Source of the DNA: Bacteroidales bacterium
Lineage (GTDB): Bacteria; Bacteroidota; Bacteroidia; Bacteroidales; F082
Length of the DNA: 64,000 nt
NCBI GenBank assembly: GCA_016291135.1
Contig: JAEFAE010000006.1
Coordinates: forward strand, 19,383 to 83,382
Direction of reading: 5' to 3'
In this document: positions 305-12,858 of the stretch, piece after piece
How the letters are laid out: the number at the start of each line of letters is the position of its first letter
Position numbering within the stretch: position 1 is the first letter of the stretch
The notes under the pieces: generated by a model
What the model was told of the DNA's origin: nothing
The model's input: the letters and a program-made list of their open reading frames with translations, nothing else
Database searches by the model: none
Program-made: the position numbers and the translations under genes

Positions 305-1621
305 ATGAAATTCTACGACAGGGAAAAGGAACTTGAAATTCTCCAAACCAATTGGGAACAGACCACAGATAGAGGTCGGCTAACGGTGCTTATTGGACGC
401 CGACGCATCGGGAAGACTACGGTGCTGAGAAAAAGCGCAGATGACGCTGGACAGCCCATGCTTTACCTCTATGTATCGAAAGACAACGAAAAGGTGTTGA
501 CCGGCAAATTCCAGGATGCCGCTGAGCAAGCACTTGGGCTGCAGATATTCGGTCGTTTGGAGACCTTCGCCCAATTTTTCGAACAGGTGTTGAAGTATGG
601 TCTGCAACACCATTTCACGTTGGTGTTTGACGAGTTTCAGAATTTTATCAAGGTGAACCCAGCCATCCCCGGCCATATTCAAGATCTCTGGGACCGCTAT
701 CACGAGGATGTGAAGGTGAACATGGTGGCTTGCGGCAGCATCTACAACATGATGCACAAGCTATTCGACAATGAGGACGAACCGCTCTATGGCCGTCAGG
801 ACTGCCGTATGAATATGCTGCCGTTCCGCATCAGCGTGCTGAAACAGATTCTCCACGACCACAACCCCCAATATACTTCGGAAGACTTGCTTTGCCTGTA
901 CATGCTGACCGGCGGCGTGGCCAAGTATGTGGCCTGGCTGATGAACGCCAAGGCGACCACCAAGGCGAAGATGCTCCGTTGGGTGACACAGGCCGGATCG
1001 CCCTACCTCACTGAAGGCACGGAGCTCATCATGTCGGAGTTTGGCAAGGACTACACCAACTACTTGAGCATCCTCCAATTGGTTGCTGCCGGCATGACAA
1101 AGCAGAGCGAGATTGACGGTGCTCTTGGAAAGAACACAGGGGCATTCCTTGACAATCTAGAGACAGAATACAGCTACCTCCATCACAAGCAGCCCATGTT
1201 CAGCAAGCCCAACGGGAGGAACTCGCGGTGGCAGTTGGACGACTGCTTCCTGCGGTTCTGGTTCCGCTTTATCCTACGCAACCAGGCACTGGTGGAGATG
1301 GAGCGCAACGACCTGCTGCTTGAGATTGTTGAGCGCGACTATGAGCGATACTCGGGCCTCGTGCTTGAACAGTACTTCCGTCAGAAATGGATGGAAGAGG
1401 AAAGGGTGACCGTGGTAGGCAACTATTGGGATCGCAACGGGTTGAACGAGATAGATATGATCGCCCTGAATGACATCGACAAGACAGCTGTGGTGGCAGA
1501 GATCAAACGTCAGAGGAAGAAATTCAATCCCAAGGAGTTTGCCGATAAGGTGTCAACTATTGAGAATGATCTGGCCAAATATGATGTTAAGCAGATAGGG
1601 TTGTCGATGGAAGATATGTGA
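305..1621 (+). CDS. AAA-family ATP-binding protein with C-terminal DUF234/PD-(D/E)XK nuclease-like domain
   Basis: N-term FYDREKELEIL, Walker A GRRRIGKTTVLRK, Walker B LVFDEFQ, C-term NEIDMIALND...VVAEIKRQ (D-x(n)-ExK pattern). Confidence 0.8.
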   Translation: MKFYDREKELEILQTNWEQTTDRGRLTVLIGRRRIGKTTVLRKSADDAGQPMLYLYVSKDNEKVLTGKFQDAAEQALGLQIFGRLETFAQFFEQVLKYGLQHHFTLVFDEFQNFIKVNPAIPGHIQDLWDRYHEDVKVNMVACGSIYNMMHKLFDNEDEPLYGRQDCRMNMLPFRISVLKQILHDHNPQYTSEDLLCLYMLTGGVAKYVAWLMNAKATTKAKMLRWVTQAGSPYLTEGTELIMSEFGKDYTNYLSILQLVAAGMTKQSEIDGALGKNTGAFLDNLETEYSYLHHKQPMFSKPNGRNSRWQLDDCFLRFWFRFILRNQALVEMERNDLLLEIVERDYERYSGLVLEQYFRQKWMEEERVTVVGNYWDRNGLNEIDMIALNDIDKTAVVAEIKRQRKKFNPKEFADKVSTIENDLAKYDVKQIGLSMEDM

Positions 1622-1656: not shown

Positions 1657-4600
1657 TTATTTCTGCTTCTTACTTAACGCCATGCTGGGGCTATTAAGCA
1701 ATATGAGTCCGGCCATGTCACCTAAGCGCTGGACCCTCTTAAAGTCGAGGTTGTGGTTGTAAACATAGCTCCTAACCCTTGCCCTAACAATGTTCAACAC
1801 CACTGGATTGTTTTTATGTTTAGAAATTATTTCCTGAAGATCACTGTCTTTTAGTGGTTCATAATAACTTTTGATGGTAAAGGTGATAACATCAGCGGCA
1901 GGTGTCTTTATTATTTCTTTAGACACCTTGTCGTAAATTTCGCTGATACCTGCAGTGCCAACAGAGGCTGATAGATTTGCGAACATATCGTAACAAAGCC
2001 TCAATAGCATCATATGGAGCAGATTCCTAATTTTATCTGTCAAGATCTGTTTGTCCATGTCAGATACGTTGTCATTTTGCTCAAGTATAGCATTCACTAT
2101 GGAATCACGATCTTTTTCAAGTAAGTTTGTAAAGAAAGACAAAACCCTGAAGGTTGAAAGATAAGCATCTGTCAACAAATCCGCTATCTGGTCTTTTCTT
2201 AAGATATCTCTTTGGTTTTTAATTACCTGGCCTATTATCCTGTTTGCTTTGATTGTGTCATTGATTTCGCGTAAATCTTTGTCCTTTTCAAAGTCTTCAT
2301 CGGTTGGGACAAACGTCTTTCCTGCTTCTGTCGCTCTTTCTTCCTCGTCACGTTCCTTTAACAATTTCTCTCGCTCTTTTCTGTGGTCCACGTCGATACG
2401 AAGGACATCCTTCTTTACTTCTTGAACAAAATCGGCAAGCTGTTTGTAAAGTTCGTCCCCTTGGTCAAGAGTAATGGGCGTTAAATTTTCAAACGGGAGC
2501 CAGCTAGCGAATTTTATTTCCTCGATAAGAGAAAGGTCTTTGTCAAGATATGCCATGAATACTAGGATATTGCCATTCTCTTCCTTGTATAGTTTTTCAC
2601 ATAGACACTTGATCTCTTTTTTCTTTTCGTCACCATCCAAAGATACAATATGTTTTGCAACAAGATAGAAATAGATGTATTTGTAAGTGAATGAGTAAAC
2701 TCCAGATTCTTTCTCGACTAAGAGTCGCGCATTGGACAAAATAGCAAGAAGTCTATCTTTTTCATAAGGCATATTCCATGTTTGGACATATTCATTATAG
2801 GATTGCACATACCCTTTTTCACCATCTACATCATAGTTATATCGGAATGAATCCTTTTTATTCTTATATAATGAATATGCCATTCCTGAAAGGAATTGGA
2901 TGATGCCGTCAAAGTTAGATTGGGGAACATTTTGCTTATGTAGAGCTGACATCAGCAAACTCTGATATAAGTTGGCATAAGAAGTGGGAGCTACGTTATA
3001 CGACTCAAGAGTTTCGTTCATTTCTTGAAGGAGAATCAACAAGAAAATAGGATTTGAGGGTAATAGCTGTTTCCCCAAGACATTAGAGAACTGCTCAAAG
3101 ATAATCTTTATCTTGTCCAATGCCTCATTGGTGTCGATACTGAATTTGTCCGCTCCAAGAAGAAGCCATCTTTCTATCAATTTGTTCCGTTTAAGATGGC
3201 CCAATTGATGTATCAAATATCTTTTGATTCTGTCATCTTTTCTGCTTTTCTGCAAAAGCCCTATTATCGAGTTGTCGGTATTAGAGGTGACTACTATGAA
3301 CTCATAATTCTCCAAAACGTTCTTAAAGGCTTCGGCGATGCCGTCCTGATTCAGTGGTGATCTGTCAATATTGTCAATAAAAACGCATCGCTTTGCTTTC
3401 TCAAACTGTAAAAATTGATCATAGTCTATCTTGTCGGCAACATATTGTTCTTTATATGCTTCTTTCAGAATGCCTCCGAGTTTTACGACTTTCACATTCT
3501 GACCTTTTACAAACAGTGGATATATTCCGTTTTGGTAGCATTGTCTAATCAGCATCTTTAACAATGAAGTTTTCCCGGACTGGGGATCGCCTTCGATGAA
3601 AATGACTTGGCCCTCGGAACAAGTATTCATTAGATTCTCTGCATCCACATATGTATACATCCTTTGATTATCCAAGCATGACATGGGTTCCAAATCTGGA
3701 TAGACATAAATATCATCTAATGTAAGGTTTTTCTTGACGGGATGTTGAATAGGTGCGTCAAGTCTTGACAAGAAATCATTGTGGGTGGGGGTAAACGACA
3801 AAGAGTGTTTTTTAAACATAATGGTCTGCGGTGTCAAATCGTCCTGATAGGAGGAACCGTCAGAATCCAGCACTATTTCAGAAGGGCTAAGCGTCATCTC
3901 CTCTGTTTCGTCATCAAGTACTGAGACCATAAACGACTGTTCTCTGCCTTGTTGTAGGGAATTGCTCTCTAGATAGAGTATTTTATCAATATTTTCCAGA
4001 TTTGAAATCACTTTTATGCCCCTTTGGTGTTCATGCCCGCACATCAGCACATTCGAGGTATGTTCAATGTGATCTTCAAAAGTCCTTTGATTGTTGTTGG
4101 CTGTTCGTGTAGAAAGCCAACCTGTTTTATGATGGAATACCGATATGACTACATCCTTTCTCGTGTCGTCAATGGCATTATTATATAAGAAGTAGTTTTC
4201 GGGAAGGAGAAGTGACTGTGGCTGCTCGTTGATAGTTGACATCAAAGCGGTGTTGTAACAATGGAATATCAGATTGCATCGGTCATTAACAGCAATGGTT
4301 TTTGAATAAGAAACGCATGGCGAAATAGGGAAGCCGTTAAGTTTTGCAACGAAATCCCAAAAGTCTTTCTGCGGTTTCAAACAGATTTGAATAAAATCCT
4401 CTTCTTCAACAACATCGCGATTCTTAATTGTATCGATGATAACGGGTCTAACCGGATCGTCTATATTGAAATTGATATCATGGTTACCTGGCACAAATAC
4501 GTAATCAAAACCATCGAGGGACGCCTCTTTCTGCAGCTCTGTTTTCAAATCATTAAAGAACTTTTCGGCTAAACTATAATTTGCAACTTTTCCTTTATCG

Positions 4601-4749
4601 ATGATGTCGCCTGAAACAACGACAACAACCTTGTTACAAGTGTTAATGATAGATTTGCAACTATGAGCAATGGCTATAGCGTTCTTAATAATAAAATCAT
4701 CAGCCGACGATATGTGCAGGTCTGACATTTGTATGATTCCTATTCTCAT
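1657..4749 (-). CDS. Calcineurin-like metallophosphoesterase fused to P-loop (STAND/NACHT-like) NTPase, about 1030 aa
   Basis: Start re-assigned from 4986 to the ATG at 4749 (MRIGIIQMSDLHISS). MPE motifs DLHIS, GDIIDKG, PGNHD, GHEHQRG; Walker A EGDPQSGKTSLL; Walker B RCVFIDNIDRS. Confidence 0.8.
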   Translation of the reverse strand: MRIGIIQMSDLHISSADDFIIKNAIAIAHSCKSIINTCNKVVVVVSGDIIDKGKVANYSLAEKFFNDLKTELQKEASLDGFDYVFVPGNHDINFNIDDPVRPVIIDTIKNRDVVEEEDFIQICLKPQKDFWDFVAKLNGFPISPCVSYSKTIAVNDRCNLIFHCYNTALMSTINEQPQSLLLPENYFLYNNAIDDTRKDVVISVFHHKTGWLSTRTANNNQRTFEDHIEHTSNVLMCGHEHQRGIKVISNLENIDKILYLESNSLQQGREQSFMVSVLDDETEEMTLSPSEIVLDSDGSSYQDDLTPQTIMFKKHSLSFTPTHNDFLSRLDAPIQHPVKKNLTLDDIYVYPDLEPMSCLDNQRMYTYVDAENLMNTCSEGQVIFIEGDPQSGKTSLLKMLIRQCYQNGIYPLFVKGQNVKVVKLGGILKEAYKEQYVADKIDYDQFLQFEKAKRCVFIDNIDRSPLNQDGIAEAFKNVLENYEFIVVTSNTDNSIIGLLQKSRKDDRIKRYLIHQLGHLKRNKLIERWLLLGADKFSIDTNEALDKIKIIFEQFSNVLGKQLLPSNPIFLLILLQEMNETLESYNVAPTSYANLYQSLLMSALHKQNVPQSNFDGIIQFLSGMAYSLYKNKKDSFRYNYDVDGEKGYVQSYNEYVQTWNMPYEKDRLLAILSNARLLVEKESGVYSFTYKYIYFYLVAKHIVSLDGDEKKKEIKCLCEKLYKEENGNILVFMAYLDKDLSLIEEIKFASWLPFENLTPITLDQGDELYKQLADFVQEVKKDVLRIDVDHRKEREKLLKERDEEERATEAGKTFVPTDEDFEKDKDLREINDTIKANRIIGQVIKNQRDILRKDQIADLLTDAYLSTFRVLSFFTNLLEKDRDSIVNAILEQNDNVSDMDKQILTDKIRNLLHMMLLRLCYDMFANLSASVGTAGISEIYDKVSKEIIKTPAADVITFTIKSYYEPLKDSDLQEIISKHKNNPVVLNIVRARVRSYVYNHNLDFKRVQRLGDMAGLILLNSPSMALSKKQK

Positions 4750-4806
4750 ATTTTGATTTTTATATAACTGATGCGCTTGAGGCTCTTTGAATTGGAGAAT
4801 ACAATG

Positions 4807-4814
4807 CAAAGTTA
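4807..4814 (-). promoter_or_regulatory. Putative Bacteroidota -7 box (TAACTTTG) for the MPE-NTPase gene
   Basis: CAAAGTTA on + strand, about 58 nt upstream of the minus-strand start at 4749. Confidence 0.45.
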
Positions 4815-4819
4815 TTACT

Positions 4820-5326
4820 ATGGACTGGATTAAAATCAAAGAAATGGCCGTAGTTGCAGTACTGGCTTTCATCATCGTTCTCATCGCCATGATGATAGAC
4901 CTCGCCAGCGGCATCAACAAAGCGAAACAACGTGGCGAAGTCAGGAGCTCATGGGGGCTTAAACGGACATTGAGCAAGTTCATCATGTACGAGGGCGGAA
5001 TGCTGATTGCCTTCGGGGTGGACGCACTGATCTACTTTTCAAGGCTTTTTGAGTTGTTCAGGTTGAGCGTCATCGACGGTGTCCCAGTGGTCACCTGTCT
5101 TGTCGGTATCTTCCTGCTCATTGTGGAGTTCAAGTCGATACGTGAGAAGTCCGACAAAAAGACGAAGAAGGATTTCTCGGAAGCAGGCGAAATCATAACG
5201 AAGCTGCTGGAGAGCAAGACCTTCAAGGACGCTTTCGTGAAGGCCATTGAGACGCAACAGCAGGCACAGGCGCATGGGGCGCATGATGATGAAGACATCA
5301 AGGGAATGACGGAGGAACTATCATGA
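4820..5326 (+). CDS. Phage holin family protein
   Basis: [37 protein letters not shown] pattern plus TM segments; ATG at 4820 preferred over the upstream TTG at 4787. Confidence 0.7.
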
Positions 5327-5520
5327 GCAAGGAACTGAGAAAAGTGCAGGTCGCCCGTGTTCCTGGCGACTCCAAGGACGGCGCGATCCATGTGAAGAAG
5401 TACGGCAGGAACGAGCCGTGCCCGTGCGGCAGCGGACTTAAAGTGAAGCAGTGCTGCTGCGGCAGGGAGAAGCAATACTTCTACATCAAGAAAAAAAGTA
5501 CAAACACAAAAACTGAATAA
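5323..5520 (+). CDS. SEC-C motif small zinc-binding protein (65 aa)
   Basis: [22 protein letters not shown] signature; 4-nt overlap with the upstream holin ORF. Confidence 0.75.
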
Positions 5521-5522
5521 CC

Positions 5523-6173
5523 ATGGCGAAAGTTGAAAAACTCATTCCCATCATCATCAAGTGGGAAGCCGGGATAGACCCGAACAAGGAGGAAAACGCC
5601 GGGCTGACGGCCAAGGAGCTGTTCGAGAAGGCGAGGAAAACAGGTTACGGCAACGACCCTGTTGACAGCGGTGGTGCTACGATGGTAGGTGTCACGCTCG
5701 ACACCTACAAGGCGTACCGCAAGAAAAAGAAGAAGTCAGTCCCGGCTATCAAGGAATTGAAGGCCATCACCTATGAGGAGTGGCTCGACATCCTGAAAAC
5801 GATGTTTTGGGATCGGATGCAGGCAGACCGCATCGAAAACCAGTCGATTGCCAACCTATGTGTCAACACGGTGTGGGGTACTGGCCCAGGATACATCAAG
5901 AAAATACAGGGTGTGCTCGGTGTCCGGCAGGACGGCATCGACGGTGACATCACCTTGGGGAAAATCAACGGCTGGAATCCGCAGTCGATGCTGTTCGACA
6001 AGCTGTGGGCGCGCCGCAAGAAATTTTTCGAGGATACCGTTGCGTCAAGCATAGCCGACTACGAACGCAAACTGGGTCGCAAGTCAACGCTTCAGGAGCA
6101 GCTGAAATACACCAAGAAACGCTTTTTGAAGGGCTGGCTCAACAGGCTTAACGACTTCAAGTTCGAGGAGTGA
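5523..6173 (+). CDS. Phage-type endolysin, GH108-like N-acetylmuramidase with C-terminal peptidoglycan-binding region
   Basis: N-term IIIKWEAG...DPVDSGGATMVGVTLDTY; C-term KKIQGVLGVRQDGIDGDITLGKING. Confidence 0.8.
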   Translation: MAKVEKLIPIIIKWEAGIDPNKEENAGLTAKELFEKARKTGYGNDPVDSGGATMVGVTLDTYKAYRKKKKKSVPAIKELKAITYEEWLDILKTMFWDRMQADRIENQSIANLCVNTVWGTGPGYIKKIQGVLGVRQDGIDGDITLGKINGWNPQSMLFDKLWARRKKFFEDTVASSIADYERKLGRKSTLQEQLKYTKKRFLKGWLNRLNDFKFEE

Positions 6174-6784
6174 TGGAGAAAGAACTGAAACACATACTCA
6201 CGTTTTTTCTGTCGGCGATCCTGCTGATGTTCGTCTCTGGTGTGCTCGGGGGCATTATCGGCTACAACAGGGGTAGCAGCCGTCCCATGCCGGAGCCTCT
6301 GTTGCCGGACACCGTGAAGATTTTCGACACGGACACCTGCTGGCTTTTACCGCCGGAGGATTCCGTGACGAAGAAGGAAGACAAGGTTGTGCAGGTGCCG
6401 CTCGACGATGTAGAGGTAGATTCCGTCGTTGATTCGGTTCGGGTCACTCTGCCGTTCGAGCAGCACTTCGCCAGCCTCGACAGCGTGGCTGACATTTGGT
6501 ATAGCGGCTATCAGGTAAGGATAGACAGCGTGGTCGTTTACCGTCACAGGACAACGGAAATAATCAATCAGCCGTACCCGTATGAGGTTTCGAGGATGCC
6601 GAAACTGACAGCAGATATTGGTGCCTCCGCGTTTTATTGCGACGGCAGGGTGAATCCTTGTCTTATCGGAGAAGTTCGCCTAAACCAGCCGAAAACAACC
6701 TTCTCCGTGTACGGAACGGTTGACCACGAAGGAAAGTGGTCTGTCGGGGTTGGCGTAAGCTACCGAATAACCATCGTGAAATGA
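6173..6784 (+). CDS. Single-TM membrane protein of the lysis cassette (spanin-like position)
   Basis: N-terminal TM then periplasmic region; TGATG overlap with the endolysin gene. Confidence 0.5.
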   Translation: MEKELKHILTFFLSAILLMFVSGVLGGIIGYNRGSSRPMPEPLLPDTVKIFDTDTCWLLPPEDSVTKKEDKVVQVPLDDVEVDSVVDSVRVTLPFEQHFASLDSVADIWYSGYQVRIDSVVVYRHRTTEIINQPYPYEVSRMPKLTADIGASAFYCDGRVNPCLIGEVRLNQPKTTFSVYGTVDHEGKWSVGVGVSYRITIVK

Positions 6785-6787
6785 CGG

Positions 6788-7252
6788 CTACTGGACGCGG
6801 ATGTAGATCTCGGTTCCTGCGTAGTTGCTGATTGTGGTCTCTGTGGTGTCTATCACGTAGTCCTTGGCGTTCAGGCCTGAACTCCAGTAGGTGGCGGTGT
6901 CGAAGGGTTCCTCACTTACATAGGCTGACAACAGCAGGTTGTTTTTGTCCAGGCTTTCGCGGATGGAGTAAGCCCAGCACCTTTGGTAGATGGTGTCAGA
7001 ACGGTGCCATACGGAGTCGAGGCCAAGACGGTCGGAGCCGTTGTAGGTAAGCATATTGGTGGGAGTGGTGAAGTCAATCGCATAGTAATACCGCTTGCTT
7101 GGATCGAATGAACTTTGCTTATAGCGTTCGTACCTGCGTCCAGTGAAGTCGAAAGTCCTTTGAACAGGTTCACTCTCCTTGGCACACGAGGCAAGGGCGA
7201 GGATGATTGAAGCGACAAGCGCGAGTGAGCGTAAAGACATAATTCCTTTCAT
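6788..7252 (-). CDS. Hypothetical lipoprotein
   Basis: Signal peptide and lipobox ILALASC; ATGA overlap with the integrase reading frame. Confidence 0.6.
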   Translation of the reverse strand: MKGIMSLRSLALVASIILALASCAKESEPVQRTFDFTGRRYERYKQSSFDPSKRYYYAIDFTTPTNMLTYNGSDRLGLDSVWHRSDTIYQRCWAYSIRESLDKNNLLLSAYVSEEPFDTATYWSSGLNAKDYVIDTTETTISNYAGTEIYIRVQ

Positions 7253-8395
7253 TTCGTTTTTTCTTTTTCCCCGTCGGCAACGGCGGGGTTTTTTATGAGT
7301 ATCGGTATCTTGGCCACGGCCTCCTGCTTCTTCCTGTCTATGATCTTGTTGGCGTATATCTGCGTCGTGGAAAGCTCGCGGTGGCCAAGGAGCTTCGAGG
7401 TTGTGTATATGTCAACCCCTAACGAAAGCATCATCACGGCGAACGTGTGGCGCGCGGAGTGGAATGTGAGTGGCTTGTTTATCCCGACGGACTGCGCCCA
7501 ACGCCTGATGGCTGGGTTGGTGCTTGCGTTGTAGTGGAACTTGCGGAACACCTTGTCGCCGTCGCACGTCCTCTCTCCCATGATCTGCCTCGCCTGTTCG
7601 TTGATGTCGAGGTATTCAATGTTCCTTAGTCTTGCGCTGCCGGAACACGATCCGAGTGAAGCCGTCCTCCTCAACGATTTCTCCCCATGTCAACGCTTCT
7701 ATGTCCGACTTGCGAAGACCCGTGAGGCAGCTGAACAGGAAGGCGCGCTTGAAGTCCTTGTTTAGCTTGGTTTCCGACAGCCTCTGCAGTTCCTCTATCG
7801 ACAGGTACTGCCTGACGCTTTCCGCGCGGCCAACGACACTAACGCCTATCGTGATGTCGGTGGCGAGCAGCCCTTCCTTTTGAGCCTCGTGCATGAAGGT
7901 TTTGAAGATGTTGCAGTACGAGTTGAGCGTTGTCCTCGAAAGCGTTTCGCCTTTGCGGTTCCTGTTTGGCGTTGTTGCGAGGTAGTCGAAGAATGCCTTC
8001 ACGTCTGCTGTGGTTGTCTGCTGTAGAATGAAGTAGTCGCCGAAAAACTCCTTTGCCCTTATTGCCACGTTGCGGTACATCTGCCGGGTGCCCATTGTCT
8101 TTTTTTCTACAAGGCTTTCTATGTATGCGGTGAGGAACGTCTTCTGACGCGAGGCGAATCCGTATGTCCCGTTCTGTATCTCGACTATGCGCCTTGCCTT
8201 GACTGCCTCTGCGAGGCGCAGGGTCTCTTTGTTACGCTGCTTCGCGTTTTTGTCACGCTCGGGAATCAGGTATAGCCGCAGGAACTCATACGACCGCCTG
8301 CCGTTGCAGTAGATGTCGAGGTAGAGGGAAACGCCGCCGTTCGACAGTTTCTTCTGCCTGATATGTACTGGCTCCTTGATTCTTGCGTTTTTCAT
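7249..8395 (-). pseudogene. Tyrosine recombinase/integrase, apparently frameshifted (ORFs 7616-8395 and 7249-7674)
   Basis: N-part carries the Arg motif TGLRKSDIEALTW; C-part carries HSARHTFAVMM and LGHRELSTTQIYA. The frame changes at ...RQRKTK|NIEYLDINEQ. Confidence 0.8.
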
Positions 8396-12033: not shown

Positions 12034-12288
12034 TCAGTTTATTAAGGCCTCGGCATCGCTATCGATGTCTGGGGCTTTTTTGTTGAGGAGCAAGAGCAAT
12101 TGTCGGGATTCGTTGAGAATAGGCTCTCGCTCTTCGAGAATTTTAGCCGTTTCCCGGATGCAATTTTGCACGGTTTCGTCGGAGGGATCACCGTCAAGGA
12201 GCTTGTCGATAGCGGCCACTCTCTTGTCGATGTCGGCAATTTGCGCGTTCAATTGTTTCAGGCGTTGAATTATCAGTTTCTTGTCCAT
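12034..12288 (-). CDS. Small coiled-coil protein
   Basis: MDKKLIIQRLKQLNAQIADIDKRVAAIDKLL heptad-like; start moved from 12339 to 12288. Confidence 0.5.
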   Translation of the reverse strand: MDKKLIIQRLKQLNAQIADIDKRVAAIDKLLDGDPSDETVQNCIRETAKILEEREPILNESRQLLLLLNKKAPDIDSDAEALIN

Positions 12289-12614
12289 GACTTGATGGTT
12301 TTCTTGTGGCAAATAAAGAAGGCGCAGACTATGCCGCAACCATTGTCAAAAGGCTCTGGTAAACCCTACAAGTATGGAAACGACCAGCCCACGCCTATGG
12401 CGCAGGCCTTATCGTTCGGTCTCCACTTGTTGAAATTTACCAGATTTCTTTGACTAGGAAACGCGAGCGTAAAGCCTTATCGTTATGTCTTATATGGGTA
12501 CAAAAGTAAGACTTTTCTGTGAAAGGGAGAATTTTTGTGGTTTTTGGAGGGTTTTTGTGCGGGAAGGGTGTGAAAGTGAGCGGTTGTGAGCAGGTGGTGA
12601 GGTTGAGCGAGGGC

Positions 12615-12715
12615 GTGTCAACGTGTCAACGGGCGTGTCAACACGGGTGTTTGTTGTCGAAATAATTATCATGAGTGGCCATAAAAATGGGATTTGGTTG
12701 ACACATGGTTGACAC
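12615..12715. repeat. Iteron-like cluster: GTGTCAAC x3 direct and GTTGACAC x2 inverted
   Basis: GTGTCAAC near 12615, 12623 and 12635; GTTGACAC near 12697 and 12708. Confidence 0.75.
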
Positions 12716-12744
12716 GGGAGAGGGTGTTAAGGGGAAGAAAAATC

Positions 12745-12769
12745 CCTAATTGACTGGGAATCAATTAGG
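12745..12769. repeat. 9-bp perfect inverted repeat beside the tRNA 3' end
   Basis: CCTAATTGA-ctgggaa-TCAATTAGG. Confidence 0.7.
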
Positions 12770-12786
12770 AATGTGTGGATTGATTG

Positions 12787-12858
12787 TAGCCCCACTAGGA
12801 CTCGAACCTAGATTTAAAGTTTAGGAAACTTCCGTTCTATCCCTTGAACTATAGGGCC
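12787..12858 (-). tRNA. tRNA-Arg(CCT)
   Basis: Reverse complement folds as a cloverleaf: GGCCCTA acceptor, GTTC/GAAC D-stem, anticodon arm GAAGT TTCCTAA ACTTT, T-arm CTAGG TTCGAGT CCTAG. Confidence 0.92.

Follow-up and report, generated by a model that had tools for sequence, protein, structure and literature searches.

A DS-8-like phosphoesterase–STAND protein, probably an anti-phage receptor, at the edge of a prophage remnant in a gut Bacteroidales genome

The window analyzed here, a stretch of 64,000 nucleotides from a Bacteroidales bacterium (GenBank assembly GCA_016291135.1, contig JAEFAE010000006.1, positions 19,383 to 83,382), contains a long gene on the minus strand that is flanked by an ATPase gene on one side and a prophage-type lysis cassette on the other. 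Its features are listed by position in the window; conservation counts refer to 44 full-length proteins from several phyla, aligned along their whole length.

305–1621, plus strand: AAA_14/DUF234 ATPase (PADLOC PDC-S27, E 1e-42)
1657–4749, minus strand: whole gene, DS-8-like calcineurin-like phosphoesterase–STAND protein of 1030 amino acids (open frame and match to NCBIfam NF053861)
1660–2679, minus strand: all-helical C-terminal domain, residues 691–1030, proposed sensor (AlphaFold)
2680–3204, minus strand: helical and winged-helix-like STAND part, residues 516–690 (nSTAND_NTPase4 match at 652–697)
3205–3654, minus strand: P-loop NTPase core of the STAND/NACHT type, residues 366–515 (weak Pfam matches to AAA_14/nSTAND3; NLRs in Foldseek)
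3370–3381, minus strand: Walker B, F457-I-D459-N (FIDN, 457–460); D459 in 44/44
3568–3591, minus strand: Walker A, G387-DPQSGKT394; G387 and G392 in 44/44, K393 in 42/44 (R in 2)
3655–3834, minus strand: linker, residues 306–365, site of the exchange of the phosphoesterase with TIR or DUF4062 (homology of the relatives resumes at about residue 315–340)
3835–4749, minus strand: metallophosphoesterase (MPE) domain, residues 1–305, proposed effector (Pfam PF00149; Foldseek; replacement by TIR or DUF4062 in relatives)
4027–4038, minus strand: MPE motif V, G238-H239-E240-H241; G, H, and H in 44/44, E in 41/44
4129–4134, minus strand: MPE motif IV, H206-H207; 44/44
4477–4488, minus strand: MPE motif III, G88-N89-H90-D91; 44/44
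4597–4611, minus strand: MPE motif II, G47-D48-IID (GDIID, 47–51); G47 and D48 in 44/44
4714–4722, minus strand: MPE motif I, D10-L-H12; H12 in 44/44, D10 in 42/44 with two gaps
4787–6784, plus strand: cassette of holin, GH108 muramidase, and DUF6808
7249–8395, minus strand: tyrosine integrase with arm and SAM-like domains, in two overlapping ORFs (frameshift near 7616–7674)

The reading frame at 1657–4749 is a real gene and not a chance ORF. On the minus strand, 1030 codons run without a stop between the ATG at 4749 and the closing TAA at 1657. A preliminary description of this DNA had given a single ORF of 1030 amino acids with exactly these coordinates and had omitted the strand; a plus-strand reading contains many stops and yields no ORF. 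The minus-strand frame stays open further upstream, to an ATG at 4986 (1109 amino acids), but this start was dropped because the homologues begin at the position matching the ATG at 4749. Nearly all of them start with M[KR][IV]... exactly at residue 1, which makes 4749 the likely start. The full-length relatives examined share 17–46% identity with the window protein, and the motifs are beyond chance because they are invariant or near-invariant across the 44 full-length homologues.

No clear defense island surrounds the gene; its neighborhood holds what remains of a prophage or satellite. Beyond the 5′ end of the gene, the opposite strand carries the holin, the GH108 muramidase, and DUF6808; after these come the integrase, a pair of HTH proteins, and primase-like genes. 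The genomes of three further members of the genus (L117, L118, and L119) carry the holin–muramidase pair without a DS-8-like gene; there, the pair follows an ORF of 970–1000 amino acids starting with MITLYWDNT..., probably a prophage structural gene, which is absent from the window locus. Because these genomes carry that ORF there, the DS-8-like gene appears to lie at the edge of the remnant, in place of the ORF. The lysis cassette was ruled out as a partner, since genus members without a DS-8-like gene possess it; it is a prophage remnant and represents context rather than mechanism. The preliminary description had placed the gene in an integrative element beside lysis genes, which agrees with the holin, muramidase, integrase, and primase-like genes but not with the frameshift in the integrase. 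The split integrase is either a pseudogene or a draft-assembly error, so the element may be immobile if the frameshift is genuine. A search for the ends of the element detected no direct repeat of at least 17 bases and none linking the tRNA-Arg with the other flank, and no genome with an empty site was recovered.

Two further observations concern the other flank. The ATPase gene at 305–1621 shares 81–86% DNA similarity with copies in two members of the genus, from about 65 bases before the ATG to the stop codon, in surroundings that are unrelated, a pattern suggestive of a mobile unit made up of one gene. Directly upstream of the window (L101:8988–15367), genes for a SPASM-type radical-SAM protein, a TonB-receptor-like protein, a C39-peptidase ABC exporter, and an HlyD-like fragment resemble, by their sequences, a ribosomal-peptide export cluster.

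The N-terminal domain of the protein is a metallophosphoesterase (PF00149, Metallophos; 34.5 bits, cut-off 21.5) with a complete bimetal active site, in which D10, H12, D48, N89, H90, H207, H239, and H241 are all present and conserved. The metal motifs DLH, GDIID, GNHD, and GHEH, already noted as intact in the preliminary description, were all found, with the key residues in 41–44 of the 44 homologues. Since a sequence search of the PDB with the window protein returned nothing, the domains were compared by fold. The AlphaFold2 model of the full protein (40 aligned sequences) has a mean pLDDT of 83.5 and a pTM of 0.65. The Foldseek matches, tabulated without query coordinates, were allotted to domains by the identity of the matched proteins; whole-model TM-scores are low (0.13–0.30) because each match spans one domain only. 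The top single match is the model of YydD-YydB from B. subtilis (9a6c_B, E 5e-14). The N-terminal part matches SMPDL3A/B, GpdQ, purple acid phosphatase, and Rv0805 (E about 4e-7 to 7e-6). No Mre11/SbcD-type nuclease appears among the 50 Foldseek matches listed, which tentatively favors phosphodiesterase or phosphatase chemistry of the nucleotide type.

The central part of the protein has the features of a STAND NTPase. The Walker A (GDPQSGKTSLL) and Walker B (FIDNID) motifs of the preliminary description were recovered and are conserved in 42–44 of the 44 homologues. The Pfam P-loop families are all sub-threshold in the window protein, and nSTAND3 is above its cut-off in relatives; likewise, nSTAND_NTPase4 (PF24406) reaches 23.0 bits in the window protein, below the cut-off of 27, and exceeds it in most relatives scanned, including L005, L002, L009, and L013. 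In the AlphaFold model, the P-loop core is followed by a helical and winged-helix part as in NLRs, and the best Foldseek matches of the NTPase part are NLRC4 (E 4.7e-10), NLRP7 (5e-8), and NLRP3 (6e-8), with a probability of 1.00; overall, the NLR matches have E-values of 5e-10 to 1e-6 and whole-model TM-scores of only 0.2–0.3. On the basis of the model, the nearest structural relatives of the NTPase are the NACHT NLRs. The preliminary description had made its reading depend on a STAND fold and had suggested an AlphaFold and Foldseek analysis; the NLR/NACHT matches of the mid-part provide that fold, next to an N-terminus of the SMPDL3A/GpdQ/Rv0805 type.

The C-terminal domain was modeled with high confidence when residues 676–1030 were folded alone (pLDDT 91.0, pTM 0.88). 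It is all-helical, and the long helical region that had been described from the sequence is thus seen in the AlphaFold models. No match to the 676–1030 model was found by fold in the PDB at E ≤ 0.001. Its position and the analogy with other STAND proteins suggest that the domain may serve as the sensor.

Exchange of the N-terminal domain is evident among the relatives of the window protein. A search of plasmid proteins recovered relatives annotated as TIR proteins, whose similarity to the window protein is restricted to the region from about residue 327 to the C-terminus. Pfam places TIR_2 at the N-terminus of L002, L007, L008, L009, and L013 and DUF4062 at that of L003, in each case on the same NTPase/C-terminal module. 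In a quick tree of this module, with some forks left open, the state of the N-terminus (MPE or TIR-like) changes at least three times. The phosphoesterase is read as an effector because exchange with TIR and DUF4062 on one switch module is typical of effector domains. A sequence analysis has likewise named the calcineurin-like phosphoesterase as one of the effectors that alternate with TIR at the N-terminus of STAND NTPases (PMC8195603). The exchange also provides a natural set of chimaeras for separating the trigger from the enzyme. In two homologues of the Prevotella type (L055:9758–13066 and L075:9764–13075), the phosphoesterase is preceded by an extra N-terminal segment of ~80 residues (IDIKGGNNQILPNA...QNIYYGDSAI), which is possibly an adaptor domain as in STAND conflict proteins.

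The relationship to DS-8 shows in the sequence. The window protein matches the NCBIfam model NF053861 (DS8_antiphage) with 765.3 bits (E 8e-230), and positions 1–992 of the 994 in the model align co-linearly with residues 7–1013 of this single protein. DS-8, a system from the DefensePredictor study (Science 2026), is a single protein that combines an SMPDL3A-homologous metallophosphatase with a NACHT domain; phage defense by DS-8 in E. coli is abolished by either of two metallophosphatase mutations or by one mutation of the NACHT ATPase, and its authors left the substrate of the metallophosphatase unidentified (PMC13092281). Because the score of the window protein falls slightly short of the curated equivalog cut-off of NF053861 (790 bits), the protein is labeled “DS-8-like” rather than an equivalog. 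This cut-off is not a clade boundary: in a tree of the C-terminal module, the window protein groups with Prevotella histicola L043, L040, and L041 (SH-aLRT 100), and scores within this four-member clade straddle 790 bits, with L043 (903) above and L040 (715) and L041 (716) below it. NF053861 gave matches in 163 of the 393 genomes of the order; nearly all of them cover only a short, generic P-loop or MPE stretch, and they were left out of the set of relatives. A distant DNA search with L064 as query did not recover the DS-8 of E. coli itself. By sequence, the window protein is a divergent relative of DS-8 from gut Bacteroidales and belongs to a system type that has already been published.

The relatives are rare and widely scattered. 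A scan of bacterial genome contigs with the single sequence confirmed nothing, and an alignment-based scan of these contigs yielded 55 loci. Full-length relatives occur in Bacteroidota, Bacillota, Pseudomonadota, Gemmatimonadota, Chloroflexota, Ignavibacteriota, and others. The module is present in only 6 of the 396 Bacteroidota genomes, and the full protein is restricted to the window genome among the 173 genomes of its family, a distribution that is patchy even within the genus. Contrary to the mainly housekeeping contexts that the preliminary description had considered damaging to its proposal, the relatives are thus rare accessory genes. They are carried also on plasmids, where they lie near restriction-modification genes. 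Among 112 neighbors of 16 relatives, counted without a control set, subunits of type I restriction-modification systems are the commonest, followed by TraG, relaxase, and integrase. These restriction-modification and mobile-element neighbors are suggestive of a defense setting. On the Paenisporosarcina plasmid L005, the DS-8-like gene is followed, at a distance of about 3 kb, by a gene annotated as a Pycsar-system effector (12248–12787), and restriction-modification genes lie on the other side. The reading frame is broken at least once in several homologues (L056, L058, L065, L084, and L006, the last of these on a complete plasmid), hinting at frequent loss of a costly gene or at sequencing errors.

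Most probably, the product of the gene is a DS-8-type STAND (NLR-like) receptor that acts against phages as a single protein, a reading to which we assign a probability of about 0.78. The layout of phosphoesterase effector, STAND switch, and C-terminal sensor, as first proposed in the preliminary description, is in line with the NLR and SMPDL3A/GpdQ/Rv0805 folds, the swaps with TIR and DUF4062, and DS-8 itself (PMC13092281), with the sensor as its presumptive part. The gene is real and intact, its product is probably functional as a DS-8-like immune protein, and an immune role of this particular copy is suggested by homology, rarity, and mobile context. Defense by the window copy, its trigger, the oligomerization, the substrate, and the cell arrest are all putative. 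In the resting state, the protein would be inactive with a nucleotide bound in the NACHT-like P-loop. The C-terminal helical domain would bind a phage-derived trigger or register a change induced by infection, and the resulting nucleotide exchange would lead to oligomerization and unlock the bimetal phosphoesterase. The active enzyme might then hydrolyze a phosphodiester or phosphate of the nucleotide type and halt phage propagation, for which the cell would probably pay a price. A more far-reaching version is less likely than not: the C-terminal domain (~690–1030) would be an undescribed phage sensor that STAND proteins of different phyla have in common, whether armed with MPE, TIR, or DUF4062, and the phosphoesterase would degrade a particular nucleotide signal or cofactor that is new to immunity.

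Three other explanations are each less likely than an immune receptor. STAND proteins act also in regulation, and the protein might be a signaling phosphodiesterase whose STAND switch serves a second-messenger, developmental, or stress response. Such a regulator is improbable in view of the very patchy occurrence of the full protein (1 of 173 genomes), its carriage on plasmids, the several broken copies, the restriction-modification and mobile-element neighbors, and the validated homologue DS-8 (PMC13092281). Slightly less probable still is a role in counter-defense, in which a phosphoesterase from the prophage remnant would degrade the cyclic-nucleotide alarm signals of CBASS- or Pycsar-type immunity to the benefit of the element. 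The adjoining lysis cassette and integrase and the resemblance of the fold to the cyclic nucleotide phosphodiesterases Rv0805 and SMPDL3A would fit this role, and a phosphoesterase with which a phage escapes bacterial immunity has been reported (PMC12287305). However, neither the NLR-like switch nor the large C-terminal domain would be needed by a constitutive decoy enzyme, the exchange with TIR fits an effector, and DS-8 protects cells (PMC13092281). Moreover, no relatives were found in 50,697 phage records, and viral contigs gave only nine matches (two near full length) compared to the 55 bacterial loci. It is very unlikely that the gene rode in with a now broken prophage or satellite and has since lost its function in the window genome: the integrase is frameshifted and structural genes are missing upstream of the holin, at the site of the 970–1000-residue ORF in relatives, but 1030 intact codons with all catalytic residues indicate that the gene was under selection until recently.

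The window protein can be compared with several known systems. With Avs, the window protein has the general effector–STAND–sensor layout in common; the Avs models in PADLOC gave no match to it even at E up to 1. The STAND conflict proteins described in PMC8195603 occur in bDLD/FGS or TRADD-N contexts, none of which was detected by Pfam in the window protein. The TIR-nSTAND relatives from plasmids of Vibrio parahaemolyticus (L007) and Lactococcus (L008) and from Pseudomonas fluvialis (L068) share the module from about window residue 315 at 20–25% identity but carry TIR_2 (in L068, a TIR-like match in PADLOC) where the window protein has its MPE. The PADLOC candidate family PDC-S60 (PDLC05050 and PDLC05051), which spans the MPE-, TIR-, and DUF4062-armed group, has the NTPase and C-terminal module in common with the window protein (184 bits, E 1e-54); the DUF4062-STAND protein L003 covers PDLC05050 over its full length (1132 bits), whereas the window protein has an MPE in place of DUF4062. 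DS-9A (NCBIfam NF053862) possesses a related metallophosphatase, to which residues 5–119 of the window protein show a weak match (37.9 bits), but it consists of two genes with a HAD phosphatase as partner (PMC13092281), and no such partner is present among the scanned genes adjoining the window gene.

The closest counterpart is DS-8, which likewise unites a metallophosphatase (SMPDL3A-like fold in the window protein), a NACHT-type NTPase, and a helical C-terminus in one polypeptide. In the tree of the C-terminal module, the Bacteroidales clade of the window protein stands apart from the highest-scoring proteins (L063 and L064; 1135–1203 bits), and TIR-bearing relatives branch between the two clades. 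With the window protein, the architecture of DS-8, so far validated in E. coli, reaches a divergent clade in gut Bacteroidales.
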